Positions 45,039 through 60,830 of a stretch of 64,000 bases of DNA are shown piece by piece. The DNA lies in contig JAIXOU010000106.1 of assembly GCA_027486585.1 (NCBI GenBank), forward strand, positions 124,001 to 188,000. The letters run 5' to 3'. How positions within the stretch are numbered: the first letter of the stretch is position 1; each line of letters begins with the position of its first letter. The stretch is from Verrucomicrobiaceae bacterium. GTDB taxonomy: Bacteria; Verrucomicrobiota; Verrucomicrobiia; Verrucomicrobiales; Verrucomicrobiaceae. Made by a program: the position numbers and the translations under genes. The notes beneath the pieces were generated by a model that saw nothing but the letters and a program-made list of their open reading frames with translations, made no database searches and was not told the DNA's origin.

Positions 45039-47579
45039 ATGCGCATGGTCATTCAGCGCTCACCTTCCGCATCCAAAGGCGGCATCGCACAATTCTTTGT
45101 CGAACACCGCTGTTTTGGCTGGCTAGCTATGGCAGCAGTTCTCGTGAGTGGATGTCTTGCCTTTCTACGTTTGCCACAACAGGAAGACCCGACTTTTCCA
45201 ACTCATGATGCGGTTCTCATTACTGTCTATCCAGGTGCTAGCGCCGAGGAAGTTGAAGCAGTTACCATCAAGCTGGAAGAAGCGCTCAGCCGACTACCCA
45301 CGCTTGAGAAATTGCAGTCGCAATCGCGAAAAAACATCTCCACGATAGTCATTACGCTAAAAACTGATCGCAAAGAAGTAATCGCCCAACATTGGGAGAA
45401 GGCGCGCGCGCTGTTGCAGGGCATCAAATTGCCTGAAGACTGTGAAGAACCACACCTTGAAACTGATTACCAGCTTCCAGCCACGTTACTTTTTTCAGTG
45501 CTTGGCGAGGATGCGGAGGCAACTGCCGATCAAGTGGAGGAAGCTTTGAAGAGCGTACCCAGCACTGGCCGCATCCGACAGTTTGGTCATGCGCCTGGGG
45601 AAATTTTGTCATTCAAAGACATGGCGGCAGCCGACTACAAGGTAAGCACTCTTCATCGTCAGAATGACGGTCCCCTGATGCCAGCCAGCAGCGTACTGAT
45701 TGCCGTCGAGATGAAGGCAGGAAATATCATTCGTGACTTCAAATTAGCGGTCCTTGCCAAGATCGATTCGATGAAGCTCCCAGCCGGGGCAAGCATCATC
45801 ACCGTATCCGATCAACCTGCTGCTACAGCCCATCGTATTGGTGAGTTCTTACGCTGCTTTATTGAAGCCGTCTTTGTTGTCGTGCTGGTAGCTTTACTGC
45901 TCATGGACTGGCGCACAGCACTAGTCGTCGCAGTCGCCATTCCACTGACCATAGCCATGACTCTTGCTGGCATGGCGGCGCTTGGGGTCCCCTTGCAGCA
46001 GATCTCTATCGCTGCGCTGATCATCTCTCTTGGTATGTTAGTCGATGACCCCGTCGTTGCCTCAGACGGTATCAATCGTGAACTCGCAGACGGCCAACCG
46101 CGGGGCATCGCCGCATGGCTAGGCCCATTCAAATTGCGCCGGGCCATTTTCTTCGGCACACTAATCAACATCGTCGCCTTCCTTCCTCTGGCCTTACTTC
46201 CAGGGGACATGGGTGCATTCATCATCTCCTTACCCATTGTTATCACACTGGCTCTAGTCTCGTCTCGCATCGTCTCGATGACCTTCATTCCACTGCTTGG
46301 ATCTTATCTTTTAAAAGGTCAAAAAGGCTTCGATTCCGCTACTGGCAGACATCCGATTTATCGGCTCGTTCCATTTTACAAGTCAGCTCTACAGCTAGCT
46401 CTCAGGAACCCTCTAAAAACGGTCGTAGCCGCTTTCGTTCTTCTTGTTGCGAGCACCGCGCTCATACCCTACTTCGGCAAGCAGTTCTTTCCCGCAGCTG
46501 AACGCAATCAACTTCTCGTGGATATCCAATTACCCGAAGGCAGTACGATTGAAAAAACGACAGCCACCACCCAGCGTGTGAGTGAACTTCTCCGAAAAGA
46601 GGCATCCATACAAAGCGCCATCATCGTGTGTGGAGGTGGAACGCCCATGTTTTACTACAACGTCCTACCTCGACAGCCCACAGCAAACACAGCCCAAGTG
46701 CTGATTAACACTCGTCATGCTGAAGAAGTCCCCAAGTTGATCATGCGATTGCGTGAAACGTTTGATCGCGAGATCAAAGAGGCACTCTGCCTTGTTAAAC
46801 AAATCGAACAAGGCCCTGCACTCGAAACGCCGATTCAGATCGAAATCAGCGGAGACGATTTAAAAACAAAACTTCTGCAAGTCACAACCGCACTGCATGA
46901 TGCTGGGGCCTACAAAGTTCATGATGATTTTGACGTCATTTCTCGAATCAATCAGCAAAGGACCGTTACCGTAAAAGCCCTTGCCCCCTTCGGTGAACTT
47001 GCCTCACGTATTTTAGAAAAGGCTCGACACTCATTTCCAACTTCGGGCATACAATTCGGTGGAGAGGAACGTGAACTCCATAACAGTCAGCGTGAAATGG
47101 GCCGTGTTCTGTCGATCTCGCTAGCCTTGATCGCACTCGCAATGGTTTTCCAATTCAGATCACTGATGAAGTCGCTGATCGTGATGCTTACCGTGCCGCT
47201 GGGGCTTATTGGAGCTTTCGTTGGCCTAGCCTCGACCCATGCTTCCTTCGGTTTTATGGCCTTGATTGGCATTGTCAGTCTCGCTGGCGTTATCGTCAGC
47301 CATATCATCGTCCTTTCCGATTTCATCGAAGAAGAACGCGCTGCTGGGGTCGATCTCGAAGAAGCCTTGATGCGTGCTGCTCTGGTTCGCCTGCGAGCGA
47401 TTCTTGCCACTGTCCTAGCAACAGTCTGCGGATTGCTTCCGCTAGCCATCAGTGGTGGAGACTTATGGCAACCCCTGACTGCCGTTCATATCTTTGGTTT
47501 ACTTTTTGGCACCGTGCTAACACTCCTCGTGCTACCTGTGCTTTATCGTTTGTTTGCTCAGTGGAAGTGGATCAAATAG
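45039..47579 (+). CDS. Shortened RND-family efflux permease
   Basis: This 846-residue protein has about 12 membrane helices and the RND proton-relay motif in TM4 (SLGMLVDDPVVASDGIN; Asp-Asp). The usual length is about 1020-1050; both large periplasmic loops are shorter here (about 230 and 200 residues), so parts of the porter or docking subdomains are missing. Related to hydrophobe efflux pumps of the AcrB/acriflavine-resistance type. No membrane-fusion protein or outer-membrane channel gene is adjacent. It converges on the ketosynthase gene with an 8-bp overlap and may export the polyketide product. Confidence 0.85.
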   Translation: MRMVIQRSPSASKGGIAQFFVEHRCFGWLAMAAVLVSGCLAFLRLPQQEDPTFPTHDAVLITVYPGASAEEVEAVTIKLEEALSRLPTLEKLQSQSRKNISTIVITLKTDRKEVIAQHWEKARALLQGIKLPEDCEEPHLETDYQLPATLLFSVLGEDAEATADQVEEALKSVPSTGRIRQFGHAPGEILSFKDMAAADYKVSTLHRQNDGPLMPASSVLIAVEMKAGNIIRDFKLAVLAKIDSMKLPAGASIITVSDQPAATAHRIGEFLRCFIEAVFVVVLVALLLMDWRTALVVAVAIPLTIAMTLAGMAALGVPLQQISIAALIISLGMLVDDPVVASDGINRELADGQPRGIAAWLGPFKLRRAIFFGTLINIVAFLPLALLPGDMGAFIISLPIVITLALVSSRIVSMTFIPLLGSYLLKGQKGFDSATGRHPIYRLVPFYKSALQLALRNPLKTVVAAFVLLVASTALIPYFGKQFFPAAERNQLLVDIQLPEGSTIEKTTATTQRVSELLRKEASIQSAIIVCGGGTPMFYYNVLPRQPTANTAQVLINTRHAEEVPKLIMRLRETFDREIKEALCLVKQIEQGPALETPIQIEISGDDLKTKLLQVTTALHDAGAYKVHDDFDVISRINQQRTVTVKALAPFGELASRILEKARHSFPTSGIQFGGEERELHNSQREMGRVLSISLALIALAMVFQFRSLMKSLIVMLTVPLGLIGAFVGLASTHASFGFMALIGIVSLAGVIVSHIIVLSDFIEEERAAGVDLEEALMRAALVRLRAILATVLATVCGLLPLAISGGDLWQPLTAVHIFGLLFGTVLTLLVLPVLYRLFAQWKWIK

Positions 47580-48828
47580 CCTCGAAAATCAGAGCCACGT
47601 TTGCCCCGCCGAATCCGCTGGAATGACTCATGGCGACCCTTGGCGCCTCATCGGATCTGACCGTGAGGATCGATACACCTTCACAGGCAGGATCAAGTTG
47701 ATCGACCTTCCCATTGGCAGGCATGAAACCTTCCTTCAAAGCCAGACAACAGATACCGGCTTCTAGAGCGCCCGCCAAACTCAAACCATGTCCGGTAAGA
47801 GCCTTCGTGCTACTCACTTTAGGTTGGGCGTTGCCATTAAAAACCGCCTTTAACGCATTCAATTCAGCAAGGTCCCCTGCACTAGTGGCAGTTGCATGAG
47901 CATTGATATAATCGATGTCCGAGGCGCTAAGATGACTATCTTTGAAGGCATGGTTCATCGCACGCACCAATCCGTTACCTGTCGGATCTGGTGCCACCAC
48001 ATCATAACCATCCGAAGCTTGCCCCCAGCCTTTGACTTCGGCGTAAATAGAGGCTCCACGCGCTGCGGCATGATCAGCCTCTTCGAGCACCAGCACAGCA
48101 CTTCCACCAGTGATGACAAAACCATCTCGGCTCACATCAAAGGGTCGCGGAGCCAAAGCAGGATCGCTCTGTGAGCTAAGGGCCCGCAGTGAGGCAAAGG
48201 GTAAAATATTATAGGGATGACAATCCTCAGCTCCCACAACAAACATGATCTTTTGACGACCCAGTCGGATCAAATCACAGGCGCTGCCTAAAGCATGCGA
48301 TGAAGAAGCACAGGCGCTATTAAAAGCCACGGATGCTCCTTTGATGGCGAATCGTGCCGTGAGATTCAGATGCAGCGAATTCGGCATTCCAGTCACAACG
48401 GTAGGAGCAGAAGTGCGCGCAGGTCCACGAGTCAGGACAGATTCAATCGCCAGATGGGTCAACCACGCTGAACCTGCTGAAGCGCAGTAGAGTCCAGTTT
48501 CAGGCGATGAAACAAGCGTCGGATCTAGCTGAGCATCGCTGATGGCCTCCTCCATCGCTGCCACGGAATAGACCGCGTTCGGAATCATCGTGCGCAGCTG
48601 AGTACGGCTAAACTCTAAATTGTTTGGAAATGACCAGTCCAATGGATCAGAGGTAGGAAAGTGAAAACCCTTCACTGTTCCAGCTAGCTTCACGCGATCA
48701 TTCATCGCTGCCAACTCCGGCATAAATTCAATACCGCTACGCCCCTCCCTTAAGCTGTCTAAGACGGCTGTACGGTTATTCCCAATACTTGAGATAAAGC
48801 CTAGTCCGGTGACAACGACACGGTTCAT
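47572..48828 (-). CDS. Beta-ketoacyl-ACP synthase, FabF-like
   Basis: This 418-residue condensing enzyme has the full Cys-His-His triad: C173 in FNSACASSSHALGSA, H311 in YINAHATATSAGDL and H347 in TKALTGHGLSLAGALEAG. The third-motif and HATAT variants differ a little from FabF (HGTGT), as in many secondary-metabolism ketosynthases. It shares a 4-bp overlap with the upstream acyl carrier protein gene, so the pair is a dedicated condensing unit rather than the housekeeping fatty-acid synthase. Likely role: making or extending the acyl starter for the type III synthase. Confidence 0.9.
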   Translation of the reverse strand: MNRVVVTGLGFISSIGNNRTAVLDSLREGRSGIEFMPELAAMNDRVKLAGTVKGFHFPTSDPLDWSFPNNLEFSRTQLRTMIPNAVYSVAAMEEAISDAQLDPTLVSSPETGLYCASAGSAWLTHLAIESVLTRGPARTSAPTVVTGMPNSLHLNLTARFAIKGASVAFNSACASSSHALGSACDLIRLGRQKIMFVVGAEDCHPYNILPFASLRALSSQSDPALAPRPFDVSRDGFVITGGSAVLVLEEADHAAARGASIYAEVKGWGQASDGYDVVAPDPTGNGLVRAMNHAFKDSHLSASDIDYINAHATATSAGDLAELNALKAVFNGNAQPKVSSTKALTGHGLSLAGALEAGICCLALKEGFMPANGKVDQLDPACEGVSILTVRSDEAPRVAMSHSSGFGGANVALIFEAI

Positions 48829-49178
48829 GCGGCCAGCTTGGTGCGTAAAAAAGCTTTTAACTGTCCGAGTGTCCGAATGTCATTCATCTCTTGATTGGCT
48901 ACCGTGATGCCCAACACTTCCTCGGCCGTCATGACCACTTCAATCATGCCAAAAGAGTCCATACCGATGTCCTCCATGAGTCGGCAATCGTCTGTGGCAG
49001 CCGCCACACCTTCCGGCTTTGGATTAGCCGCATCTCGTGCCAAAACTCCCAATATAATCGCTGGCAGTTCAGCAAGATCTCGGGACTCCTCAAAGCGCAG
49101 GGCCGCCTCTAAAGTCTCGGCACTGCATCGTTTCAGTGATTTAGCGATCTCCTGTTTTCGTTCTTCGGTGATTGGCAT
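48825..49178 (-). CDS. Acyl carrier protein (extended)
   Basis: This 117-residue protein has the phosphopantetheine site GMDSFGMIE (Ser75) and helices typical of ACP (MIEVVMTAEEVLGITVANQE). It is longer than AcpP (about 78 residues) with an extra N-terminal helical part (KQEIAKSLKRCSAETLEAAL). Overlaps the ketosynthase by 4 bp. It probably carries the growing or starter acyl chain for this pathway. Confidence 0.88.
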   Translation of the reverse strand: MPITEERKQEIAKSLKRCSAETLEAALRFEESRDLAELPAIILGVLARDAANPKPEGVAAATDDCRLMEDIGMDSFGMIEVVMTAEEVLGITVANQEMNDIRTLGQLKAFLRTKLAA

Positions 49179-49207
49179 GACTGTGTGTAATCAACTTTGC
49201 AGTTAGT

Positions 49208-50056
49208 TCAAACCTTCTCGGCACTGAAAACCCCGTAGCGCTGAATGCCTAGTTCATAGGCCAACCAGATGCGGAAAAGAGTAAGAGCAAAGATACGATT
49301 TGGATTTTTTGAGCTGAATAAAAAACGCCGGTAGTGTGACTTGGTGAGAATGCCTTTCACAGCACGCATCGCACACAGCGGCCAGGTGCGCTTCACTTGC
49401 GGAGCGTAATCCCTGAATTGATAATTCGTGAAACCAGCGGCTTCAGTAGCAGCACGGAATTCGCTCTCAGGTCTGACGCCCGCAATTTCTGTCTCACGTG
49501 TGATGGTGTCAATGAAGTATCGTTTAGCAAATGGATCCGGGTTTTCACATGACATCCAGGCCGCTGCTACCAGTCGGCCTCCAGGTTTCATGACACGGTA
49601 ACACTCGCGAAAAAAAGTTGGCAGATCGGGCATGTGTTCCAAACTTTCAACGGTCTGAACGACATCAAAACGATTATCAGGCAGTTGGTTCTCATACCAG
49701 TCACGCAGCATGAAATGGGTCTTTCCTGAAACGCTGTTATGCTTCTGTGCATAGGCCAGTTGAACGGCAGAAATGGTCATGCCTGTTACATTGGCACCAT
49801 ATCTCTCGGCTAGGATCTTTGCCGTAGCACCATAACCGCAACCAATGTCGCAGACATCCGTGTCCACACCAGTCTGGCCAAGCTCGGCGACCATCTTCAC
49901 GAGATTCTCTGCCGCTTCAGTATCGGATTCTTTGCCTGTGTACCAAACACCATGATGAACATGTTCTCCCCAGATCTCGCGGTAAAACTGATCTAGGTCG
50001 TCGTAATGGGAGGCTGCGCCATCAATGGTAGGTATGTAGTCTTTCGTGGAAGTCAT
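49208..50056 (-). CDS. SAM-dependent methyltransferase (CFA/Erg6-like)
   Basis: This 282-residue class I methyltransferase has motif I DVCDIGCGYGATAKILAERY and begins with IPTIDGAASHYDDLDQFYRE and the HHGVWYTG segment found in cyclopropane-synthase- and sterol/tocopherol-type methyltransferases. It also has MLRDWYENQLPDNRFDVVQT and SLEHMPDLPTFFRECYRVMK. It probably methylates a carbon or oxygen of a lipid-like aromatic substrate. It lies 29 bp upstream of the acyl carrier protein gene and 3 bp after the monooxygenase. Confidence 0.86.
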   Translation of the reverse strand: MTSTKDYIPTIDGAASHYDDLDQFYREIWGEHVHHGVWYTGKESDTEAAENLVKMVAELGQTGVDTDVCDIGCGYGATAKILAERYGANVTGMTISAVQLAYAQKHNSVSGKTHFMLRDWYENQLPDNRFDVVQTVESLEHMPDLPTFFRECYRVMKPGGRLVAAAWMSCENPDPFAKRYFIDTITRETEIAGVRPESEFRAATEAAGFTNYQFRDYAPQVKRTWPLCAMRAVKGILTKSHYRRFLFSSKNPNRIFALTLFRIWLAYELGIQRYGVFSAEKV

Positions 50057-50059
50057 GAA

Positions 50060-51229
50060 TCAAAGAGTTTGCGGTTTCAAGCTAGCCTGGGGAACACGAT
50101 CCAGGGTATTGAAGGGAATCGTCAGCATGGCATAAAATGAACCCATGTGTCTGCTAATGAAACCTTGGCTTAGCAAGAATCGAAGCATGAGATCTCTCAA
50201 TATCGACAACGATTTCCCGCGCCATGTGCCAAGCCACATGCCCCATTCTGCACGGAAGATGGCTGTGGCGGCTGCTTTACGTCGAAACCGATTGTAGGCC
50301 GGCAGGAGACCCAAGGCATCAGGCTGCCCTAGGATTTCGGCCAGAAACTCAGCATCCGCGAAACCTGTATTCATGCCCTGACCACCGATCGGGCTCATGC
50401 CATGAGCTGCATCCCCGCAGAGGATGATGCGGCCATCGTAGTAACGGTCGCAATTGAACCGGCGCGGAGAAAACACACTCTCATTCACCTGATCCTCAAC
50501 GGGTAGCTCTACGCCTGCTCTCTGACGCGTCAGTTCACTAACCAAACCCGCTGGAGGATGATCCAGCCGGCTGTCTGTTTGCACGACCCAACGTCTTTTC
50601 CCGCCAGGTAGCGGGAAGGATTCCACCGAACCTGTCGCTGTGAAAAAGAGATGGGCTTCATCGCCGAATGACGTCCGATCGATAAAATCGCCCATGACAA
50701 AATGTAAGTCATAACTGTGACCCGGTGCTTTCATCCCAATCCAATCGCGCACAGGGCTACGCCAGCCATCACAAGCCACGACATAACGAGCCGTCCATTC
50801 ACGGTCTTGAGCGCGCACTCTACAGTGATCGGCAGCTTGGTTGACTTCCGTCACCTCACAGCCTGATTCAATCCACTCAGCACCGAGATGCTTCTGCAAA
50901 AGAGCAAGGGTCATCACTTGAGGCAGAGCCAGGACAAAACGATGGGGATCAGGAATCTCACGAAACGTCATGCAACCGAGTTTGCCACTCTGGCCATGTA
51001 CAAAACAGTCGCGCACCTTTAATCCAGCGGCGATAAACGCCTCCGTTAAACCAAGCTTATTCAAGATCTTCAGCGATGGAGGTGTGATTCCAATCGCCGC
51101 AGAGTGGGGAATGGGCTGTGTGCGCTTTTCCAAGACACGAAAGGTCATGCCCTTGTTCTTGAGCAAGCAAGCCAGCAACAGCCCCACTGGGCCGCCACCA
51201 ACAATGAGCACATCAAAATCTGGCTTCAT
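50060..51229 (-). CDS. FAD-dependent aromatic monooxygenase
   Basis: From ATG 51229 (MKPDFDVLIVGGGPVGLLLA) this is 389 residues; the ATG overlaps the polyketide synthase stop by 4 bp. Group A flavin hydroxylase motifs are GGGPVG, VVACDGWRSPVRDWIG (DG motif) and GDAAHGMSPIGGQGMNTGFA (GD motif). It is the class that hydroxylates phenols, as in ubiquinone synthesis or SrsC-like conversion of alkylresorcinols to hydroquinones. Position next to the type III synthase supports such tailoring. Confidence 0.88.
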   Translation of the reverse strand: MKPDFDVLIVGGGPVGLLLACLLKNKGMTFRVLEKRTQPIPHSAAIGITPPSLKILNKLGLTEAFIAAGLKVRDCFVHGQSGKLGCMTFREIPDPHRFVLALPQVMTLALLQKHLGAEWIESGCEVTEVNQAADHCRVRAQDREWTARYVVACDGWRSPVRDWIGMKAPGHSYDLHFVMGDFIDRTSFGDEAHLFFTATGSVESFPLPGGKRRWVVQTDSRLDHPPAGLVSELTRQRAGVELPVEDQVNESVFSPRRFNCDRYYDGRIILCGDAAHGMSPIGGQGMNTGFADAEFLAEILGQPDALGLLPAYNRFRRKAAATAIFRAEWGMWLGTWRGKSLSILRDLMLRFLLSQGFISRHMGSFYAMLTIPFNTLDRVPQASLKPQTL

Positions 51230-52380
51230 GCAGTTAGCTGTGCTTTCGATTTCTTTGGAACAGTCATCGTTACTCCACAGCGTTCGAAGACGGCTGTCTC
51301 TACCGTGAGCCCAGGACCAAAGGCAATGGCACAAGTCATGGCGTGATCTGTTTCCGCCTCCTCAAGCATGCCTTTAAGCACGAACATCACTGTCGGACTG
51401 CTCATGTTCCCATAATCACGCAAAACACCGCGAGAGATCTCCAAAGCCTCAGGCGGCAAAGACAGGTGCTGCTCCACCTGATCGAGAATGGCGCGCCCAC
51501 CTGGATGAATCGCCCATTCGTCGATATCGCTGAGCTGCATCTCACGCTTCGCGAGAATACCGCCGAGCATCTCACGAATATTGCTACCGATGAGATCGGG
51601 CACATAGGCAGACAGCACCATATTGAATCCATGATCTCCGATGTCCCAAGCCATGTGAGCCTCACTGGACGGAACTAGCGCAGAGTGAAAACCCTGCACT
51701 CTGTAAAAAGGCCGATCGCCCGCAGGTTCACGCGCACTCATGATTGCTGCGGCTGCACCATCTGCGAAGAGGGCATTGGCCACGATACTCTCTGGCTTGT
51801 CACTGACTTGAAGATGCAGGGTGCAAAGTTCTAGACACATCACCAGCACCACAGCCTTTGGATTGGCCTCACAAAATTGTGCCGCCATACGCATGGCGGG
51901 AAAAGCCGCATAACAGCCCATGAAACCTATGGTGTAACGCTCAACATTTTCATTCAAACCCAGATCACGGATGATGTGATAATCAGGCCCTGGATTAGCA
52001 AAGCCCGTGCAAGAAGCAAAAACGACATGCGTGATCTCCTCTTTAGCAAATTGCGGACACTCGGCGAGCGTCTTCCGCGCAAGCTTCACCGCAAGTTCGC
52101 GTGAGGCTTTGGCATAAAGGGCGTTGCGCTGGCCTGTGGTGGGCGAATTGATCGTGCCATCTGGCAGGGTGCGAAATAGATCTCCGTCCTCTTTGGTGAA
52201 ATCATCAATCACGCTGTACCGAGTCTCAATCCCCGTCCGCTCATAAATCATCTCGACCATGCGTTTAGCGCGAGCCTCCGTAACCCAGCCCTTCATGCGT
52301 TCACATGAAAACTCGTTGCTATAAATAAACGGTGGCGTGTCCGTGGAAATGTGGTGGATGTAAGCCGGCATGAAGATCAA
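51226..52380 (-). CDS. Type III polyketide synthase (chalcone/stilbene synthase family)
   Basis: This 384-residue homodimer-type enzyme condenses acyl starters with malonyl-CoA. The Cys-His-Asn triad is intact: C156 in IGFMGCYAAFPAMRMA, H292 in WAIHPGGRAILDQVE and N325 in DYGNMSSPTVMFVL. It is a bacterial branch, likely alkylresorcinol- or alkylpyrone-forming when given long-chain starters; the exact product is not predictable from sequence. Overlaps of 4 bp with both the upstream YceI gene and the downstream monooxygenase show one operon. Confidence 0.93.
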   Translation of the reverse strand: MIFMPAYIHHISTDTPPFIYSNEFSCERMKGWVTEARAKRMVEMIYERTGIETRYSVIDDFTKEDGDLFRTLPDGTINSPTTGQRNALYAKASRELAVKLARKTLAECPQFAKEEITHVVFASCTGFANPGPDYHIIRDLGLNENVERYTIGFMGCYAAFPAMRMAAQFCEANPKAVVLVMCLELCTLHLQVSDKPESIVANALFADGAAAAIMSAREPAGDRPFYRVQGFHSALVPSSEAHMAWDIGDHGFNMVLSAYVPDLIGSNIREMLGGILAKREMQLSDIDEWAIHPGGRAILDQVEQHLSLPPEALEISRGVLRDYGNMSSPTVMFVLKGMLEEAETDHAMTCAIAFGPGLTVETAVFERCGVTMTVPKKSKAQLTA

Positions 52381-52943: not shown

Positions 52944-52971
52944 GCAAGTAAGGCGAGGAGATGCCGTGTGA

Positions 52972-55900
52972 CTACTGAAGATTGAAGCCGCCAGAAAGAA
53001 TCGCGGTCGCCGTAGCAGCCTGTCCCTGAGCCGGAATTTGCGGTAACATAAAGTAACCCACGGCTTTATGACTCCCATTGCTCAATCGCACGACTTGACC
53101 TTGGAAAGCCACCTTGGACCGAACCAAAGGCGGTGTGGTGGGTTCTGTCAGATTGAAGCTACCCGCCACCCCACCAGTTGCTGTATTTAGAGTGATAGCG
53201 ACTTTGCCTGGATTGATTGCATTCTTGAGGTCGATCGTGTTACTGTCAGTGAAAATGAAGCTCATGTCAGGATCTATGGCTGAACTGGCAAGTCCGCCAT
53301 CCGTGAACCTCAAGTTAACGTTCCCAGGATCAGGCAATCCCAGCACAATGCTGCCTTTATTAGCCGGAGCTAGATAACCGCCCGCTGCCCTCAGCTTGAT
53401 AGGCCCGAAGTTAGTCGCGTAAGCACGACCACTGATCTTTGGCTTATTCCAAGTAAGCTCTCCACTGACAAAATTATTGGCAAAAAGCCCTCCCGTATCC
53501 TCAGCAAGCTTCAGCCCCTCTTGAATGCTCTGATTGCTCTGACTGCTCTGATAGCTCAGAATACTACCCCCATTTTTATAGAGCGGACTATACGCCCAGA
53601 AATCGCCGGCATTGCTCAGAAAGCTCGCGCTGGTGAAAGTCTCGCCATCAGCCGTCCTACCGACTGTGGTAATCACACCTGCAAGGCTGATATTGAAAGT
53701 GGCAAAGCCGCTGCCTTGAGGAATGGAGACTAGGCCTTTATCAGCCTGATCAACCAGATCCAAAGCCATGCTATAGTATCCAACCAGTGCATCGGCTGGA
53801 TTGTTCAGAGCATTCCAGCCTGTGCGCCATCCCTTAACTTTATCTAAGAACGGAGCAATTTTGGATGTCATTTCGCCTGTGACGGGGTCCAGGGTCAAAC
53901 TCAATGACTGACCTCCGATAGTCCCTGAAATCTGGGGAGCCACTGCCGCTAAATTTCCAGTCATCGAGTAAGCAGTCGATGCCCCCTTAACGGCGCTATT
54001 AGCAAACGCCCCGACAAGTTTGACCGTGTAGCTTCCGAGTGATGTTGTTGTCACCACCAGTGAACCACCTAAACCTCCATTGAGCGTAGCATCACGTGCG
54101 ACGGTTCCGCTAAAAGTGCCGACTAGATTTTTATCCAAGGCACGCACAATCAATCGCGTTGTGATAGCCGCACTGGCACCGCCTGTATTGAGCGCACGCA
54201 CTTGCACATTGTAGAGTCCAGATACCAGTGGGCGACCACTGATGACTCCTGTTGCAGGAGCAAACGTCAACCCAAGTGGCAGGCCCGTCATCACAAAGGT
54301 CCTTGGATAATTCAAGGCTGTCACCGTGTAGCTGAAATTAGCGCCAATGGTTAGGGTAGGGAATACAATTGGCTGAATAACAGGTGCCAGGAAAATGGGC
54401 GATACGGGAAGAGTGAACTGCTTCGTCACGACAAAACCCGTATTGTCTGTCAGTCGGACGGTGAATGTGGAAGCATTAGCTGTGAGTGTTGGAGTGCCAG
54501 AAAGTACACCTAAGCTGCTGAGACTTAAACCCGGAGGTAATGCACCAGCACTCAAGGCCCAGGTGTAAGGCGCCGTTCCGCCTTGCCCAACTAGCGTTTG
54601 GTTAAAAGCCACATTTCTGACCGAAGTCAGAAGACTTGATGTGGCAATGCTGAGATCACTCATGCGGACGCTAAATGCCCTGGTATCAGTGAATCCAAGG
54701 GCATCCTGAAGTCTCAATGTGAAGTTACTTGTAGTTACGCTTGTTGGAATACCAGAGAGAACGCCAGCCTCACTGAGGGTGACACCTTCTGGGAGCGCAC
54801 CTGAATTCAAAGCCCAAGTGTAAGGTGCCGTACCAGCACTGGCCGCTAAAGCTGTGCTATAGCTGCTCCCCACATTGCCTGGTGCCAAGACAGAAGCTGT
54901 GGAGATAACCGGAGCGCTGCCAGTGGCGAGGGTAAAGACCTTTGTAGCCGTTAAAATATTCGCATCACTCAGCTGCACGGTAAATTGGCTCGTGCCCGCA
55001 GAGGTCGGGGTACCGCTGAGCGCTCCTCCAGTGCTAAGTGCCAGTCCTGAAGGCAAAGCACCAGCGCTGACCACAAACCGATAAGGTGCTGTGCCACCCT
55101 GGGCGGCCAGTTGCTGAAGAAAGCTGCTACCGATCAGTCGCGAAGCCAGTATGGATGTAGTGATTGTAGGCGGTGTCGCAGCCACTGAATCAGGAAGAAA
55201 AGCGGTGGTGCTGAAGTGGGTATCCACCGTTACTTTGTCAAAGCCGAAGTTCGCCTGATTCGCAGGCCCCGTGATCGTGATCGCATAATTTGCCTGATTG
55301 CCGGGCAGATCCCATTTGGCCCAGAGCTGCCCGTCACCCGCGCTGTTCACTGCCTGAACCACCGTCGGGGCCACTCCATTGAGGCTATTGAGCGATATCG
55401 TTGCAGGAAAGGAACCGGCCCCAGGAATAGCAGCGATTTGCATCACGATGGTCGTGAATCCCTCCGTGCCAACTGTACCACTTGTCGGCACAGTGACTTG
55501 CTCAGCCAAAGTGCCGCTAGCGAAAGACAGATCACCATTATCGATGACATGATCTTCCGCATTGGTCGTCTGGAAGTTTGCTCCGACGGTAGCGCTCCCA
55601 ATGTCGGGTGAGCTATCGTTGATCGGCACTGCGCGATCTGAGGCATCATTAAATGTTTCCCATCCAAAATAAGTGCTTGCAGCAGTTCCCCGCTCAGTGA
55701 CGGCAAACAGCCCTGCACTTTGACTCATTGCGTGAGCATACGCTGGAGTGACCAGTAAAACAGTGACCGTGGCAGCAGCAGAGTTGACCCCTGTTGGATT
55801 GACCTCATTGGAGACCTTGACCCAATAGCTTTTAGTTAGTGTTGATGCCGGTGTCGTGAAAGAATTAGAGTTCGTTCCCACTGGAGTCGTCGTCACACCG

Positions 55901-57057
55901 CTATCGCCTTCATACCATTGATAAGAAAGTGCGCCATCTCCACTCGCAGACACCGAGAGTGTCGTGGAGTTACCATAATTGACTGAGGTCGAAGCGGGAG
56001 ATGCTGTGATAGTTGGAGGCTGCAACACGGTGACTCTCGCTACCGTCGAGTCTGCACCCCCAGGATTGGCCAAGTTAGAAACTCGGACCCAATAATCGGT
56101 GTTCTCCAAGAGAACCGGGGTTGTAAATGAAGCACTGTTGGTTCCACTAAGCGGATTAGCCGTGATGCCGCTAGCTCCTCGGAACCACTGATAAATCAAC
56201 GGTGCATCGCCAGTCGCAACGACAGAGATAGTCGTCGTTTGTCCGCGGTTAATTGTCGCCGATACTGGATGCGTTGTGATCGCCGCAGGCTGACGAACCG
56301 TCACTGTAGCTGTATTGGAATTAGCTCCCGTAGTATTCACGGAATTAGTAACTTTCACCCAATAACTCGTTGTATCCGCCAGTACCGGCGTAACGAAAGT
56401 AGCGGAGTCAGTTCCGACAGGAGTCGTCGTCGTGCCGCTGGCGCCTTGATACCATTGATAAGTTGGGGGAGGCACTCCAGTGGCAATGACCGTCAGCGTG
56501 GTGCTACCACCACTGTTGATGGACGTCGAGGACGGATGCGTCGTGATAACTGGGTTCGGGGCGACACTAATGGTGATGGCCTTTGATACCCATTCTCCCG
56601 AGAAACCAGCGTACCGGTATGCCCTGATTGTGACGTTTCTGTCGCCGACTTGCGTGGTTGTGCCCGTCAAGGTTGCAGTTGCACCCGTGGATTTCGTCAG
56701 CGTCAGGCCAGTAGGCAGTGTGCCACTGAAGACCTGCCACGATTGTGGCTGGCTTGGACTTCCTAAGACTTGGAAAAGGCCATTTAAAGCCACCCCTGAT
56801 GTCACTGGAACGGTCGCTGAACCTGCTGAAGGTGCCACCTGGGAGAGTGTCGTCGCGCCAGCCACACTGTCATAAGCGCCAAGTCCCACGACCGTTGCAA
56901 TCGCAATCTTTGTCGCATCCATCACAGCGAATGAACTCAGTAGATTCACCTCAGGCATGATGATCTGTGCAGCGGGCGTGCGCTGAAAGAGCAGGAGGAA
57001 CGTGCTGCTGCGTTTGCAAAGCCTTTTGAGCTTCTGAAGGATTGGCTGATTTTTCAT
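52972..57057 (-). CDS. Giant secreted Ig-repeat protein
   Basis: This 1361-residue protein has an unusual N-terminus (basic start, then RTPAAQIIMPEVNLLSSFAV and MDATKIAIATVVGLGAYDSV, likely a transport signal). Next are a putative-Ig (He_PIG-like) unit (about 85-165), three near-identical Ig-like units of about 88 residues (about 168-435; shared SYWVKVxN and TYQWY), a domain with FGWETFNDASDRAVP, four more He_PIG-like repeats (about 645-985; GTAPYxW...LPxGLxLS...LSGTP) and a beta-rich C-terminal region. It is probably surface-exposed. It lies 41 bp after the DUF4266-like gene and 28 bp before YceI. Confidence 0.82.
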   Translation of the reverse strand: MKNQPILQKLKRLCKRSSTFLLLFQRTPAAQIIMPEVNLLSSFAVMDATKIAIATVVGLGAYDSVAGATTLSQVAPSAGSATVPVTSGVALNGLFQVLGSPSQPQSWQVFSGTLPTGLTLTKSTGATATLTGTTTQVGDRNVTIRAYRYAGFSGEWVSKAITISVAPNPVITTHPSSTSINSGGSTTLTVIATGVPPPTYQWYQGASGTTTTPVGTDSATFVTPVLADTTSYWVKVTNSVNTTGANSNTATVTVRQPAAITTHPVSATINRGQTTTISVVATGDAPLIYQWFRGASGITANPLSGTNSASFTTPVLLENTDYWVRVSNLANPGGADSTVARVTVLQPPTITASPASTSVNYGNSTTLSVSASGDGALSYQWYEGDSGVTTTPVGTNSNSFTTPASTLTKSYWVKVSNEVNPTGVNSAAATVTVLLVTPAYAHAMSQSAGLFAVTERGTAASTYFGWETFNDASDRAVPINDSSPDIGSATVGANFQTTNAEDHVIDNGDLSFASGTLAEQVTVPTSGTVGTEGFTTIVMQIAAIPGAGSFPATISLNSLNGVAPTVVQAVNSAGDGQLWAKWDLPGNQANYAITITGPANQANFGFDKVTVDTHFSTTAFLPDSVAATPPTITTSILASRLIGSSFLQQLAAQGGTAPYRFVVSAGALPSGLALSTGGALSGTPTSAGTSQFTVQLSDANILTATKVFTLATGSAPVISTASVLAPGNVGSSYSTALAASAGTAPYTWALNSGALPEGVTLSEAGVLSGIPTSVTTSNFTLRLQDALGFTDTRAFSVRMSDLSIATSSLLTSVRNVAFNQTLVGQGGTAPYTWALSAGALPPGLSLSSLGVLSGTPTLTANASTFTVRLTDNTGFVVTKQFTLPVSPIFLAPVIQPIVFPTLTIGANFSYTVTALNYPRTFVMTGLPLGLTFAPATGVISGRPLVSGLYNVQVRALNTGGASAAITTRLIVRALDKNLVGTFSGTVARDATLNGGLGGSLVVTTTSLGSYTVKLVGAFANSAVKGASTAYSMTGNLAAVAPQISGTIGGQSLSLTLDPVTGEMTSKIAPFLDKVKGWRTGWNALNNPADALVGYYSMALDLVDQADKGLVSIPQGSGFATFNISLAGVITTVGRTADGETFTSASFLSNAGDFWAYSPLYKNGGSILSYQSSQSNQSIQEGLKLAEDTGGLFANNFVSGELTWNKPKISGRAYATNFGPIKLRAAGGYLAPANKGSIVLGLPDPGNVNLRFTDGGLASSAIDPDMSFIFTDSNTIDLKNAINPGKVAITLNTATGGVAGSFNLTEPTTPPLVRSKVAFQGQVVRLSNGSHKAVGYFMLPQIPAQGQAATATAILSGGFNLQ

Positions 57058-57098
57058 CGTATTAGTTAGGCTGGTTGTTTTGAAAATGAATGTGATTG

Positions 57099-57326
57099 TT
57101 AATTACAGCCGCAGCCGCCACCGCCCACACCACCGCCACCAAAGCTGGCTTCGCGCGAAAAGTAGGCGTGCTGAGTCATCGCCAGCAGCAGAGAGTCACG
57201 ACCTGCGTCCATAAGCGGGTTCGCCAGATTACCGCGCTGGTAGGGCTTCACGCGCACGAGATGCTGGGAGCAACTACTGAGCAGCATCACAGCCATGGCG
57301 GCAGTAGTGAGGATCATTGTTTTCAT
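57099..57326 (-). CDS. DUF4266-like lipoprotein with Gly/Cys tail
   Basis: This 75-residue protein has a lipoprotein signal (MKTMILTTAAMAVMLLSSC, Cys19) and a mature part VKPYQRGNLANPLMDAGRDS, then HAYFSREASF and a terminal GGGGVGGGGCGCN. I recognise this as the DUF4266 pattern, whose members occur beside ApbE and DUF3570 genes. The C-terminal CGCN could bind a metal or take a cofactor. It lies 21 bp after the thioredoxin gene. Confidence 0.82.
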   Translation of the reverse strand: MKTMILTTAAMAVMLLSSCSQHLVRVKPYQRGNLANPLMDAGRDSLLLAMTQHAYFSREASFGGGGVGGGGCGCN

Positions 57327-57347
57327 CGTTAAATAAGTGGGGTGATT

Positions 57348-57833
57348 TTATTCAGTCAGCAGCGCTTCGATCTCGGCGGTGTATTCGGCTTCGGTCTTGG
57401 CACCTTTAAAGCCTTTGTGGATATGGCGAATCACACCTTTGCGATCCACGAGGTAGCTGCTAGGCATTGTCGGCGGATTAAAGAAGTCTGCTGCCTTATG
57501 CTGTGAATCATGCACCAGAGTGAAGGCGACTTTGTTCTTAGCCAGGAAGCCTTGATATGCCGACGCTTCATCATCGACCCCGATGCCTATGGTCACCAAT
57601 CCCCTCGCGGCATACTTCTGATGCAGCCGTGCCATGGTGACAAATGAGGCTTTACATGGCGCACACCATGAAGCCCAGAAATCAACGAGGACGACTTTTC
57701 CCATGGTCTTTGGCAGTGAAGAACCGGGTAGCAGAGCACTTAGAGCAGGAAGGGCCGTTCCGACTTTGGGTTCTGCTGCTGTTGCAACAGATAAGCTGAG
57801 ACAGATGAAGGCGAGGATTAAGTTTGTTTTCAT
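57348..57833 (-). CDS. TlpA/ResA-like periplasmic thioredoxin
   Basis: This 161-residue protein has a signal peptide (MKTNLILAFICLSLSVATAA) and a thioredoxin fold with the active site FWASWCAPCKASF. ALLPGSSLPKTMGKVVLVDF is the typical first strand. It would reduce or handle disulfides in the periplasm, perhaps acting on the Cys of the DUF4266-like protein. Gaps are 27 bp to apbE and 21 bp to the DUF4266 gene, so the genes are cotranscribed. Confidence 0.9.
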   Translation of the reverse strand: MKTNLILAFICLSLSVATAAEPKVGTALPALSALLPGSSLPKTMGKVVLVDFWASWCAPCKASFVTMARLHQKYAARGLVTIGIGVDDEASAYQGFLAKNKVAFTLVHDSQHKAADFFNPPTMPSSYLVDRKGVIRHIHKGFKGAKTEAEYTAEIEALLTE

Positions 57834-57860
57834 GGTATTTGAATTTTTGGAAGAATCAGA

Positions 57861-58832
57861 TCAGGCTGCTTGAACTTGGAATTTGCGGAACTCTCGGGTA
57901 ACATGCGGGCCATGCTCATCCTGCACGCAGGCTTCAACACCGGGAGCGCGGTCGGCAAATAACAGCCCCTCCCGCAAGCCTAGAATGAAGACACAAGTAG
58001 AATAGATACCCGCCAATAAACAACTCGGCGCAATGACTGTAACAGCGCGCAAACCGTGTCGCACTGGCCACCCAGTGCGGCGATCCAGAATGTGACCGTA
58101 GCGGACACCGTTGTGTTCAAAGCGCCGAGCGTAATCACCCGATGCACAGACAGCATAACCGGACACGGCTAGACCACCTATGCATTGCTCGGTTTTGATA
58201 CCATCCTGAATCCCCACATGCCAAAAGGGATGCAGGCCATTGCCCCCGAAGGCGAAGATATCGCGACCGAGATCGACAAGTGCGTCTTGGATACCATACC
58301 TCTTGGCAATAGCGATGAGTTGATCCACGGCGAATTCTTTGCCAAAGCCTCCGAAGTCTAGCCCCATGCCCTCACGAGCAAGAAAGACTTTCCCTGGCTT
58401 GCGGTGCAAGTCCTTCCAATTTGAGAGAGCTAGTGCCGTGGCGATCTCATCATGACTGGGCAACCGTTCATGCACGATCTTCCAATCCCATACTTTAGTC
58501 AGTGGCAGTGTAGCCGCATCAAGAACACCATCCGTCAGGCGATGCATAACGTCTGCTAAATCAAGCATCTTCTCCATTTCATGATCTACCGACACCCATT
58601 CCTTGCCCGCAGCCTGATTGATTTTTGATAACATCGAGTCCGGTTTAAATCGGGAAAACTTTGCCTCAAAAGCACTCAACCAACCAAGTGCATCAGCCAC
58701 GAATAGTAGAGCCGTCTTTTTGTCTTCACAACGAAACTGGATGGCACAGTCAGTTCCCAACGCACGAAAGGCCACACGCCGCACGCCGCGTGCATCAGGC
58801 TCGATGGGGATTGGAGGGACTGCCTTAGACAT
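57861..58832 (-). CDS. apbE: FAD:protein FMN transferase (ApbE)
   Basis: This 323-residue enzyme attaches FMN to Thr/Ser of target proteins, usually outside the cytoplasm. ApbE features are FRALGTDCAIQFRCEDKKTA, FSRFKPDSMLSKINQAAG, GLDFGGFGKEFAVDQLI and HILDRRTGWPVRHGLRAV. I see no clear signal peptide, so its location is uncertain. It sits between the DUF3570-like and thioredoxin genes (9- and 27-bp gaps). No obvious flavin acceptor motif ([S/T]GA[S/T]) protein is adjacent, so its substrate here is open. Confidence 0.92.
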   Translation of the reverse strand: MSKAVPPIPIEPDARGVRRVAFRALGTDCAIQFRCEDKKTALLFVADALGWLSAFEAKFSRFKPDSMLSKINQAAGKEWVSVDHEMEKMLDLADVMHRLTDGVLDAATLPLTKVWDWKIVHERLPSHDEIATALALSNWKDLHRKPGKVFLAREGMGLDFGGFGKEFAVDQLIAIAKRYGIQDALVDLGRDIFAFGGNGLHPFWHVGIQDGIKTEQCIGGLAVSGYAVCASGDYARRFEHNGVRYGHILDRRTGWPVRHGLRAVTVIAPSCLLAGIYSTCVFILGLREGLLFADRAPGVEACVQDEHGPHVTREFRKFQVQAA

Positions 58833-58841
58833 GAAGTTGAA

Positions 58842-59996
58842 TCAGAATTGAAAGTTAAGGCCAAAGGTACACATGCTGGCAGTGGCATAGGAAGCTGCAG
58901 GTGCCTGATCACTCCCAATGCCGGACATGTCGTAATGCTCGTAAGTGACGGAAGCCGCTATATTTTCAGTGAACCGGTAGCGGGCCTTTAAACCGAGGCT
59001 CATCGTCGCCATTGAAGAGAGGCGATAATCCGCAGAGTAGTTCGGCCCGCTGCCGTCAGGATAAATCTGCGGCGTGGCGATATTCACCTCGTTGAGAGAG
59101 TTGTGGAAGAAGTCCGCCGCACTCTGCTGGTAGTAGCGGAAGAAGGGAGTAATCTCCCATTTTCCAAACAAACTCTGCCTCCACTCCAGTTGCAGGCTCT
59201 GGGAGAAGACGCCGTAGTCGTCCTGCGCAAGGCGAACGACGGCATCCAGCGCCGATTTCGTTTTTTCGAAGTAGTGTGTCCCCTGGAACTGCAACACGCC
59301 TCGTAGCCGACTAGATGGGCGGTTTTCTCGATAGGAGCTAGTAACTGGAAAAACACCAACAAGTTCATCGCGTTGAATGCTCTTGTATTGATCATTCAGG
59401 TAGCCTTCCGCATACCCCAAAGTCAGATTGGCAGACAGAACGGTGTTTTTGTCCAAAAGCTGGGATAAACCGAAGAAGAGATCGTAGCTTCTTTTGTTCT
59501 GATCATCGATTCCTCTCACGACGATGGTGTCATTAAGATAGTTGAGCCCGAATGACACCGTCGTATTCTTCTGATTCAGTTCCCACTTATCACTCAGGGA
59601 GATGCCCTGAGAAAGGTAGTCGCTTTCACGGCTGTTTGACAGCTCCAGTTCCACACGATGATCACCGATCTGCTGGGAAAGTGCTGCCAGCACGCCTTGA
59701 CGCACGTCGTCAATGGGCGTCAGGAATGGCTGTTTAGCGCCAGGCAGGGCTTTCTGCTGATTCTCGGGTAGAACTCCGTTGGGCGTAGACCCACTGATTG
59801 CGTCCCTCAGAAACTGAAAACGGAAGCTCGTTTCTTCGGATAAAAAGATCTCGCCACGATAATAGTAGGACTCGACGAACATGCGACCGCCGGACTCATC
59901 ATAAGTCTGATAACTTGTATCAAACTTAAAGGCCTCCGCACCTGCCAGGGGCACAACAGGCATCAGGAGTGGCGCTAAGGCGATTTTTTTTTTCAT
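58842..59996 (-). CDS. DUF3570-like outer-membrane beta-barrel protein
   Basis: From ATG 59996 (MKKKIALAPLLMPVVPLAGA) this is 384 residues with a signal peptide. It has alternating aromatic beta strands (SFRFQFLRDAISGSTPNG, SVTYEHYDMSGIGSD) and ends in Phe (CTFGLNFQF), typical of a barrel. The start RMFVESYYYRGEIFLSEETS and the RDAISGATP-like block match the DUF3570 family, found with apbE, TlpA and DUF4266 genes. It heads the tight part of the run. Confidence 0.82.
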   Translation of the reverse strand: MKKKIALAPLLMPVVPLAGAEAFKFDTSYQTYDESGGRMFVESYYYRGEIFLSEETSFRFQFLRDAISGSTPNGVLPENQQKALPGAKQPFLTPIDDVRQGVLAALSQQIGDHRVELELSNSRESDYLSQGISLSDKWELNQKNTTVSFGLNYLNDTIVVRGIDDQNKRSYDLFFGLSQLLDKNTVLSANLTLGYAEGYLNDQYKSIQRDELVGVFPVTSSYRENRPSSRLRGVLQFQGTHYFEKTKSALDAVVRLAQDDYGVFSQSLQLEWRQSLFGKWEITPFFRYYQQSAADFFHNSLNEVNIATPQIYPDGSGPNYSADYRLSSMATMSLGLKARYRFTENIAASVTYEHYDMSGIGSDQAPAASYATASMCTFGLNFQF

Positions 59997-60344: not shown

Positions 60345-60830
60345 TCAAATCAAAAGCTGAACACCCGTCATGGTTGGCCGCCAATCGCTTTCCTTCTGCT
60401 CTTGATCTCTTGTCATCTGATGGCGAAACATGTCGCGCACCTGCTGCTCAAAAGAATGCCTTAACATCTGAGTTGCCTCAAAGTTAATGCTGACAGGCTG
60501 AAGTACCTCCTCGGCCACAAGATGACGCTCAGAGGAAGCGACACTGGTTAAGTGGACTGAGGAAAAGTGATGATCGCCATTCTGGTCTTCACGACAAAAA
60601 CAGACCAATACACGAAGACTGGCATTGACGTGATCGGCAACCTCCGGCGTTTCAGCACCTACGCGATGATGCAAAACGATCTGAGTGATTTGATCCGATT
60701 CTAGAACGATCATCTCGTGACTCCCATCCAAGTCAGCCAACATCGCGGCTGAGGCCGTCATCACCGAGGTCCCTGTGATGGCGTAAGCCAGCAAGAGGAG
60801 CAGCGCGGTGAAACGATTGAGGGGACTCAT
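60345..60830 (-). CDS. Secreted or membrane-anchored protein, unknown
   Basis: This 161-residue protein has an N-terminal hydrophobic signal (MSPLNRFTALLLLLAYAITG). The mature part contains a LRVLVCFCREDQNGDHHFSS segment and a charged helical C-terminus (LRHSFEQQVRDMFRHQMTRD). No family recognised. It is upstream of the DUF3570 gene across a 348-bp gap on the same strand, so cotranscription is uncertain. Confidence 0.55.
   Translation of the reverse strand: MSPLNRFTALLLLLAYAITGTSVMTASAAMLADLDGSHEMIVLESDQITQIVLHHRVGAETPEVADHVNASLRVLVCFCREDQNGDHHFSSVHLTSVASSERHLVAEEVLQPVSINFEATQMLRHSFEQQVRDMFRHQMTRDQEQKESDWRPTMTGVQLLI

Follow-up and report, generated by a model that had tools for sequence, protein, structure and literature searches.

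Organization of the gene run

Eleven co-directional genes, all with open frames by ORF and coordinate analysis, extend along the minus strand from position 59996 to 47572 of the window, that is, the whole 64,000-nucleotide stretch of verrucomicrobial DNA analysed here (Table 1). A flavinylation module (DUF3570 protein, ApbE, TlpA-like thioredoxin and DUF4266 protein) comes first, followed by a large Ig-repeat protein, a YceI-family lipocalin and a type III polyketide synthase (PKS) pathway. On the module side, the gaps are 9 bp between DUF3570 and ApbE, 27 bp between ApbE and TlpA, 21 bp between TlpA and DUF4266, and 41 bp between DUF4266 and the Ig gene; on the PKS side they are 28 bp (Ig-YceI), 3 bp (FADox-MT1) and 29 bp (MT1-ACP), with 4-bp overlaps at T3PKS/FADox and ACP/KS. 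Re-measurement thus reproduced the tight eleven-gene run and the gaps given in an earlier note on this DNA, except that the 4-bp overlap claimed for the YceI/T3PKS join depends on a TTG start at 52380; the likelier ATG at 52371 leaves a 5-bp gap. Since each ORF was called as its longest frame, the N-termini were judged by eye, and with them the signal peptides.

Table 1. Predicted genes of the run and its flanks (window positions)
Feature	Position	Strand	Assignment and remarks
DUF3570 protein, 384 aa	58842..59996	-	PF12094 E 1.2e-65; signal-like N-terminus (by eye); C-terminal Phe
ApbE-type FAD:protein FMN transferase, 323 aa	57861..58832	-	PF02424 E 1.8e-67
TlpA/ResA-like thioredoxin, 161 aa	57348..57833	-	PF08534/PF00578, ResA-like; WCAPC; signal-like N-terminus (by eye)
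DUF4266 small lipoprotein-like protein, 75 aa	57099..57326	-	PF14086 E 1e-19; signal-like (by eye)
Large Ig/He_PIG-repeat protein, 1361 aa	52972..57057	-	Ig/He_PIG repeats; Ig homologue behind DUF4266 in joined family modules
YceI-family lipocalin, 188 aa	52377..52943	-	PF04264 E 7.9e-11; signal-like N-terminus (by eye)
Type III polyketide synthase (T3PKS), 381 aa	51226..52371	-	PF02797/PF00195
FAD-dependent aromatic-hydroxylase-like protein (FADox), 389 aa	50060..51229	-	PF01494 E 3.8e-45 (scored from 51226)
SAM methyltransferase (MT1), 282 aa	49208..50056	-	PF08241 E 1.9e-23
Acyl carrier protein (ACP), N-terminal extension, 117 aa	48825..49178	-	PF00550 E 4.9e-06
FabF-like ketosynthase (KS), 418 aa	47572..48828	-	PF00109/PF02801
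S161, unclassified secreted-looking 161-aa protein	60345..60830	-	no Pfam/NCBIfam match
Short RND transporter, 846 aa	45039..47579	+	PF00873, SecD_SecF, MMPL matches
Methyltransferase-like protein MT2 (by eye), 219 aa	44292..44951	-	no Pfam match; recurrent PKS neighbour in relatives

Beyond the claimed ends, S161 is a twelfth co-directional gene 348 bp before DUF3570; its relatives in the fetched loci precede DUF3570, CzcC or yceI, and it is possibly the leader gene of the run. At the other end the convergent RND transporter gene overlaps the KS gene by 8 bp, and among 24 KS-bearing loci of relatives RND and MT1 genes are both present in 13, both missing in 10, and MT1 stands alone in 1. Consensus scans were uninformative: they gave 8 promoter-like and 11 terminator-like sites, compared with 10.4 and 12.5 in shuffles, and the same scans found neither kind of site in the 28-bp Ig-yceI gap. 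We regard the gene order kept in relatives as better evidence against a chance arrangement than such scans.

Comparison with known pathways and flavinylation clusters

The T3PKS has a Cys153-His289-Asn322 triad that is invariant in 24 aligned rows, and its nearest PDB match is PKS18 (E 9.7e-52); FADox shows UbiH-family matches below the cut-off. Together with YceI, the type III PKS, flavin hydroxylase and methyltransferase probably constitute a pathway of the phenolic-lipid or polyketide-quinone type. Type III PKS products have been published as respiratory quinones, and excerpts of the same source describe the pkqABC polyketide quinone operon of Mycobacterium and Streptomyces, whose product is an alternate electron carrier (PMC9927152, from Anand 2015). 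Like pkqABC, the run unites a type III PKS with a Cys-His-Asn triad, a methyltransferase and a flavin oxidoreductase; unlike it, the run adds an ACP, a ketosynthase and YceI and belongs to a Gram-negative host, and the likeness is one of gene kinds, not of pkqB/pkqC sequences. The hid-type alkylresorcinol operons of planctomycetes and cyanobacteria, as excerpted from PMC10896814, also combine a type III PKS, an FAD oxidoreductase and a methyltransferase, in the order methyltransferase-oxidoreductase-PKS rather than the PKS-oxidoreductase-methyltransferase seen here. The hid-type operon of Saltatorellus ferox likewise includes a lipid/isoprenoid-binding protein, perhaps YceI, whereas a flavinylation module, present in the window run, is not noted for hid-type operons in those excerpts (PMC10896814).

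The claim that YceI binds quinone-like lipids is upheld by published work, at least as excerpted, in which YceI proteins bind ubiquinone-8 (PMC9113575). There, protection from lipid peroxyl radicals comes from the YceI-family protein BcnA together with the cytochrome b561 LcoA, and alpha-tocopherol is among the ligands of BcnA. The window run resembles BcnA-LcoA in placing a YceI lipocalin, with a quinone as likely ligand, beside an envelope redox partner; it differs in that the gene upstream of YceI encodes the Ig protein instead of a cytochrome b561, and in its dedicated lipid pathway, of which the excerpts note no counterpart for BcnA-LcoA (PMC9113575). Other PKS loci contain quinone or lipid cues of their own, namely a UbiE-type methyltransferase (L078 and L141; L and G numbers denote our loci and genomes), MlaE/MlaD (L078) and MMPL (L149 and L190).

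DUF3570, DUF4266, thioredoxin-like and ApbE genes make up published flavinylation clusters (Meheust et al. 2021, PMC8238504); the excerpted text reports one DUF3570 protein shown to be flavinylated by its own ApbE, and 316 published clusters lack a nearby DsbD. The window module has the same four genes side by side, in an order shared by most class-level loci fetched, and as in the published clusters its DUF4266 protein ends in CXC (57105-57113, within the C-terminal GGGGCGCN); the eight C-terminal residues are identical in 27/27 surveyed rows. The published clusters have two [S/T]GA[S/T] motifs in DUF3570, whereas the window protein has a single altered one, SGST at 59784-59795 (read directly; the near-identical relative L002 was surveyed). 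Six of the 13 joined modules fit [S/T]GA[S/T], six including the window have Ser at the third motif position, and G015, in whose module no TlpA is labelled, reads AGAT. Aligned to two PDB chains, the ApbE of the window shows Gly where the 'DALST' motif normally has Asp, and no signal peptide is visible by eye at its N-terminus, which makes it doubtful that this ApbE, as had been assumed, attaches FMN outside the cytoplasm. One class-level ApbE (L105) has a signal-like N-terminus by eye. In G019 a 709-aa fusion resembling ApbE precedes yceI; it was rejected as an apparent relic in which the expected motifs are missing. An AlphaFold model of DUF3570 from three alignment rows (mean pLDDT 42.8), whose long strands hint at a beta-rich protein, was set aside.

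Unlike the published clusters, the window module adjoins an Ig protein, YceI and a type III PKS pathway, and the word 'polyketide' is absent from the main text on DUF3570 flavinylation clusters (PMC8238504). Each half of the run is known, and no description of the union of a flavinylation module with a type III PKS pathway was found in the literature searched, in agreement with the earlier view that the combination lacks a described precedent.

Distribution and histories of the two blocks

Among 68 genomes of the host's family, 58 have a PKS match and 24 have DUF4266; both blocks are present in 19/68, and they are together in 13 of these, 12 on one contig. The count of 13 includes G058, with about 10 kb from Ig to yceI, G032, where three ORFs intervene, and G029, where an additional Ig gene and one small ORF do so. 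It also includes G016, whose Ig gene is interrupted by a contig break, so that its join is inferred. An adjoining module is absent in 45 of the 58 PKS-match genomes, and DUF4266 lies away from the PKS in 11/24, five of which have no PKS match. Conserved adjacency, the check named in the earlier note, holds for most family genomes with both blocks and fails for most PKS genomes. The yceI gene precedes the PKS in 46/58 fetched family loci as listed (one, L028, a short piece) and in 43/58 by a stricter gap test, the other three being overlong PKS frames that overlap yceI. These 58 PKS-centred loci cover 54 genomes, and with the window 55 of the 58 PKS-match genomes; outside them are the PKS matches of G002 (DUF4266 on another contig) and of G007 and G062 (both without DUF4266), and some weak second matches.

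A class-level survey of 384 genomes for further joins gave 70 DUF4266 places, 31 of them within 29 fetched regions, with 6 from family genomes already surveyed. Separate occurrence of the blocks in most relatives, which the earlier note had set against its own reading, was half borne out: 45 of the 58 PKS-match genomes of the family are without an adjoining module, and outside the family, among the matches listed, only G400 joins the blocks, by inference, versus 27 genomes with both. Most PKSs of these 27 are about 30% identical and are probably of other kinds; the PKS place of G266 lies outside the matches listed. In G400, of another family, one contig end has divergent CzcSR-like genes, YceI, an FAD-PKS fusion and DUF3570 (profile 5-350), and another contig starts with DUF3570 (356-397)-ApbE-TlpA-DUF4266-Ig, no other copy being present, so that the block order of G400 seems to be reversed, with a contig break in between. 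In G277 both blocks lie about 15 kb apart on one contig, which was not scored as a join. Among the best 80 of at least 585 named loci, many on short contigs, the module was found in L128 and L129 only, both of the family.

The PKS tree (63 rows, quick, long branches flagged) puts the 13 joined genomes in two separated starred groups, and the joined state needs 4 changes, at least 3 of them forced. The module tree (ApbE, DUF3570 and TlpA; 19 rows, excluding the joined G017 copy and the split G400 DUF3570 and including the second G017 copy) rejects the PKS groups, with AU p 2.8e-12 and 5e-4 for groups taken from the PKS tree after the loci were seen. This rejection makes repeated joining or in-place exchange of the blocks likely. 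Over the 13 joined genomes, the identities of ApbE and DUF3570 are correlated (Spearman 0.72; 0/2000 permutations as high), compared with 0.14 (180/2000) for PKS and ApbE and 0.28 (48/2000) for PKS and DUF3570. YceI identities correlate with both blocks and, with the PKS-DUF3570 value, indicate a partly shared block history.

Neighbours of the PKS cluster and a proposed role

CzcA-type exporters (TIGR00914) precede the PKS cluster in at least 13 of the 58 PKS-match genomes: in at least six (G022, G030, G033, G045, G051 and G052) no more than two small ORFs separate Czc from the yceI gene behind it, and in at least seven (G013, G014, G017, G029, G032, G036 and G058) Czc, module and yceI-PKS follow in series. 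G063, where yceI follows a TIGR00914 protein that belongs to another subtype, is outside this count. This metal-efflux link, missed by the earlier note, equals the module link in frequency (13 genomes each; Czc among the matches listed). The exporter carries the RND motif DFGLIIDGAVVMVEN, which we take to be of the divalent-metal type; we call it Czc-type for that reason, and a CusA (copper) label was dropped. The slot before yceI-PKS has a further occupant: in G023, G031 and G059 a run with an MtrC/MtrF-like multiheme cytochrome (Pfam on the L024 protein) takes the place of the module, which fits an electron-transfer role. This cytochrome is near the PKS in three of the eight family genomes with both, a 48% homologue follows a DUF3570 module in G368, and the host genome (G000) has no match at E<=1e-30.

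We propose, tentatively, that the run combines two modules, much like an operon, for a single cell-envelope task, in which a YceI-carried (hydro)quinone would work with interchangeable redox modules; the apparently repeated joining of the blocks in relatives suggests that in this Prosthecobacter-like host lipid and redox proteins cooperate outside the cytoplasm. An acyl starter would come from the KS and ACP, the type III PKS would build an alkylresorcinol-type ring, and the FAD hydroxylase and methyltransferase(s) would convert the ring to a methylated hydroquinone or benzoquinone lipid. The RND protein and YceI, the latter as a lipid carrier of the kind proposed for ubiquinone-8 in BcnA/GNA1030, may then move the lipid from the inner membrane to the periplasm and outer membrane, where it would exchange electrons with the DUF3570 flavoprotein (FMN from ApbE) and the TlpA/DUF4266 thiol pair. 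The redox partner may be interchangeable, since the MtrC-like run occupies the place of the module in relatives. The recurrence of the Czc-type exporter and of regulators resembling CzcRS suggests redox control in the envelope as the setting, probably under metal or oxidative stress, and the task could be either outward passage of electrons or keeping the lipid reduced as an antioxidant.

The Czc neighbours also allow a different reading, possible but leaning towards unlikely, in which exporter, flavin/thiol, cytochrome and phenolic-lipid genes are separate stress answers behind one metal-responsive promoter, with a lipid that makes the envelope stiffer or shields it and has no contact with the redox proteins. 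Besides the Czc genes before PKS clusters and the exporter motif, it is favoured by Czc genes next to DUF3570 modules in other genera (L063, L064, L065 and L070, whose fetched stretches show no labelled PKS) and about 70 bp from the MtrC-like cytochrome in G024. However, Czc genes are missing from the window's run, each family genome has 1-10 TIGR00914 matches (among the matches listed), so that some nearness to the PKS is expected, and YceI and the UbiE-type methyltransferases speak for a redox lipid that is mobile and not structural.

One branch of the proposed assembly, unlikely in our estimate, would make the lipid a chain-breaking agent that stops lipid peroxidation as tocopherol does; YceI would carry it, the flavin/thiol or heme module would reduce it again, and no electrons would pass outward. 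The metal-efflux context and, as excerpted, the lipid-peroxyl protection by BcnA-LcoA and the alpha-tocopherol bound by BcnA (PMC9113575) are in its favour, but domain searches found no b561-like gene in the run, and the MtrC-like cytochrome of relatives would be odd for a purely protective role. Quite improbable is passive synteny, an ancestral neighbourhood kept or swapped by recombination between like loci around a dispensable module with no functional tie: it would account for the many PKS clusters lacking the module, the confinement of joins to one family except for G400, the neighbourhoods shared by genus-mates (such as the NosR-like gene) and YceI identities that track both blocks, but not readily for the conflicting PKS and module trees, the apparent reversed block order in G400, the tight co-directional spacing, or a chance of random placement within 15 kb in 4-8.6 Mb genomes put below 1% by a hand estimate that ignores relatedness.

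Under the two-module proposal, the earlier idea that the polyketide is a redox carrier for the module gains from the joins, the conflicting trees, the MtrC-like slot and the published quinones and YceI ligand, and loses from the motif-variant ApbE and the fewness of the joins. In its boldest form, which we think unlikely to hold in full, a dedicated polyketide quinone on YceI would shuttle electrons from the inner membrane to interchangeable envelope terminals (DUF3570/DUF4266/TlpA or MtrC-like). If true, this would be a periplasm-crossing electron route in Gram-negative bacteria using neither the menaquinone pool alone nor a cytochrome bridge. The recurrent union, in which a cytochrome or exporter can replace or precede the module, offers a single testable hypothesis for the two blocks, namely a lipid electron carrier with its partners in the envelope under metal or oxidative stress; polyketide quinones, so far of Actinobacteria, would then reach Gram-negative envelopes as well.

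A NosR/NapH-like FMN protein, with a single match in 62/68 genomes, lies within 20 kb of the PKS in 15. Its gene is near-universal and often adjoins rhomboid-like and xerC-like genes (by eye), so we read its nearness as neighbourhood, not as proof of a functional partnership.

Adjacency of the redox module and the PKS block

Two known modules, the flavin/thiol genes DUF3570-ApbE-TlpA-DUF4266(-Ig) and a type III PKS block led by yceI (Table), are associated; the association is real and conserved, and it has probably been remade repeatedly. ORF reading of the window, which spans positions 124001-188000 of contig C1 in a 6.5-Mb draft genome (G000), confirmed the strand and gaps of the eleven-gene run described earlier, except at the PKS start, where an ATG at 52371 leaves a 5-bp gap after yceI. 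No Shine-Dalgarno-like sequence is evident by eye upstream of the starts in the window run.

Gene order was read in 58 PKS-centred loci and in 15 DUF4266-centred loci away from those. Across the 68 Verrucomicrobiaceae genomes, DUF4266 is present in 24, a PKS match (E<=1e-10) in 58 and both in 19; the blocks adjoin in 13 of these 19. They share a single contig in G000, G013, G014, G015, G017, G018, G029, G032, G036, G037, G040 and G058, and appear to adjoin across a contig break in G016, counted as joined because its Ig gene is cut by a contig end and continues from the beginning of the contig that carries yceI. They lie apart in G001, G002, G011, G019, G043 and G063. With 13 joined genomes, it follows that no module adjoins the PKS in 45 of the 58 genomes with a PKS match and that, of the 24 DUF4266 genomes, 11 carry DUF4266 at another site, five of these lacking a PKS match. 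In the gene-order listing, 46 of the 58 fetched loci have yceI ahead of the PKS. Before yceI, G019 has an ApbE-like fusion without the usual motifs that may be the remnant of a module since lost; a further module, in which no TlpA is labelled, is found about 92 kb away.

Table. Features with coordinates (window positions unless a locus is named)
Feature	Position	Strand	Remark
Twelfth gene, unclassified small secreted-looking protein	60345-60830	-	348 bp upstream of the eleven-gene run
Redox module	52972-59996	-	
ApbE, Gly-for-Asp variant	57861-58832	-	alignment to two PDB enzymes
PKS block	47572-52943	-	
Convergent RND gene	45039-47579	+	
ApbE-like fusion of G019	L029, 6678-8807	+	
FAD oxidoreductase-type III PKS fusion	L085, 8263-10632	+	one 789-aa frame

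Probable repeated assembly or exchange of the blocks

In a quick PKS tree of 63 rows, the 13 joined rows split over two separated starred groups, five in a group of 13 rows and eight in a group of 10; the joined state needs four changes, three of them forced by starred branches. A careful module tree (ApbE+DUF3570+TlpA, 19 rows) contains a starred group of eight (the window, G040 and G015 with G032, G058, G029, G019 and G044) and a second group of eight, support 83/95 (G037 and G016 with G036, G018, G013, G014, G043 and the second copy of G017), both of which combine rows from the two PKS groups. The AU test on the module tree rejected the PKS grouping (p 2.8e-12 with five rows, 5e-4 with four). 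Pairwise identities point the same way: the window shares 0.93 identity in the PKS and 0.76 in ApbE with G015, versus 0.61 and 0.81 with G032. PKS and ApbE identities correlate at 0.14 (180 of 2000 permutations as high), and PKS and DUF3570 identities at 0.28 (48 of 2000); the latter, together with the correlation of YceI identities with both blocks, indicates a partly shared history. These sequence comparisons suggest that on more than one occasion the blocks were joined or swapped in place; such a pattern would result from recombination between similar loci.

Class-wide (384 Verrucomicrobiia genomes), DUF4266 occurs in 62 and, among the matches listed, a PKS match (E<=1e-20) in 160. Comparison of the two tables gives at least 27 genomes outside the family with both; of those 27, among the matches listed, only G400, from another family, joins the blocks, and in G277 they lie about 15 kb apart. 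The PKSs of such genomes are mostly about 30% identical to that of the window, and most are probably of other kinds. In G400, contig C34 ends with divergent CzcS-CzcR-like genes, YceI, an FAD-oxidoreductase/PKS fusion (Pfam domains read; 36% identical) and the first part of DUF3570 (profile 5-350), and contig C113 starts with its last part (356-397), then ApbE, TlpA, DUF4266 and Ig. A search of G400 found neither a further DUF3570 copy nor an overlap between the two ends. With the profile split between two contig ends, the blocks would adjoin in reverse order if these ends are neighbours, as they appear to be. A second G400 PKS (42%) is on another contig. A fused FAD oxidoreductase and type III PKS was seen in locus L085.

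Among the best 80 of 585 named loci, the closest PKS relatives are from Prosthecobacter and other Verrucomicrobiaceae MAGs (near-identical records are possibly missing), others reach Desulfuromonadales, Balneolales, Gemmatimonadota and further lineages, the YceI-PKS pairing is kept in several Desulfuromonadales loci, and the module appears in L128 and L129 only.

A putative lipid redox carrier and its envelope partners

Published reports describe polyketide quinones serving as electron carriers (PMC9927152), planctomycete alkylresorcinols, one operon for which includes a lipid-binding gene (PMC10896814), a YceI lipocalin linked to ubiquinone-8 and paired with a redox partner (PMC9113575), and the flavinylation module (PMC8238504). 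Our literature search, which reached few subscription journals, listed no paper on the union of module and PKS pathway. The association most likely pairs a putative lipid redox carrier with partners in the envelope, in the context of metal or oxidative stress.

The PKS triad residues are present in the window and invariant in 24 relatives. In 20 of the 58 loci the hydroxylase bears an extra N-terminal membrane domain, ICMT-like by eye and without a match in a Pfam search. In other lineages the PKS is paired with UbiE-type methyltransferases (L078, L141), MlaE/MlaD (L078) or MMPL transporters (L149, L190). Within the PKS group of the window, the methyltransferase MT1 and the convergent RND gene co-vary (both in 13 of 24 loci, neither in 10, MT1 only in one). 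These features fit a lipid product that undergoes methylation, hydroxylation and transport across the envelope; it is putatively a quinone. In L078, genes for a type III PKS, a hydroxylase and a UbiE-type methyltransferase precede those for an MlaE permease, an ABC ATPase and MlaD, an arrangement that may pair the pathway with dedicated lipid transport.

DUF3570 and ApbE show features that weaken this reading. DUF3570 has a single flavin motif. Six of the 13 joined modules fit [S/T]GA[S/T], six, including the window, have Ser at the third position and G015 has AGAT; the final Thr/Ser, which we take to be the flavin acceptor, is retained. The DUF3570-linked ApbEs compared carry Gly at the position of Asp in two aligned PDB enzymes and in two unlinked ApbEs of the same set, and are a subtype with AG replacing AD in the FAD/Mg motif. 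No signal peptide is visible by eye in the window ApbE. Either it works in the cytoplasm, prior to export, or its activity is altered; G000 encodes three more ApbEs elsewhere.

Genes occupying the slot before yceI

In at least six genomes a Czc-type RND gene precedes yceI, separated from it by no more than two small ORFs, and the order Czc, module, yceI-PKS occurs in at least seven; Czc genes also adjoin four DUF3570 modules of other genera (L063, L064, L065, L070). The co-directional run ahead of yceI in G023, G031 and G059 includes a very large protein, an ECF-sigma-like gene (by eye) and a cytochrome whose CXXCH motifs number 7-9, the count of 7 coming from a frame truncated by the end of its contig. 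The L024 cytochrome is MtrC/MtrF-like (Pfam). A 48% identical cytochrome follows a DUF3570 module in G368, one gene between, and in G024 one follows a Czc gene at a distance of about 70 bp. This cytochrome occurs in 10 of the 68 family genomes; eight of these also have a PKS match, and in three of the eight the two lie close together. In G026 the distance is about 20 kb. In L006, L010 and L024 a very large repeat protein was seen beside the MtrC-like cytochrome and ECF-sigma-like gene, co-directional and upstream of yceI-PKS.

Pfam and NCBIfam searches gave no match for the twelfth-gene product. Its relatives precede DUF3570 in L002, L005, L033, L062 and L071, CzcC in L004, L011 and L042, and yceI in L018, L020, L021, L022 and L024. 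They lead several distinct metal or redox gene runs, and by eye have His/Cys/Asp-His positions in common.
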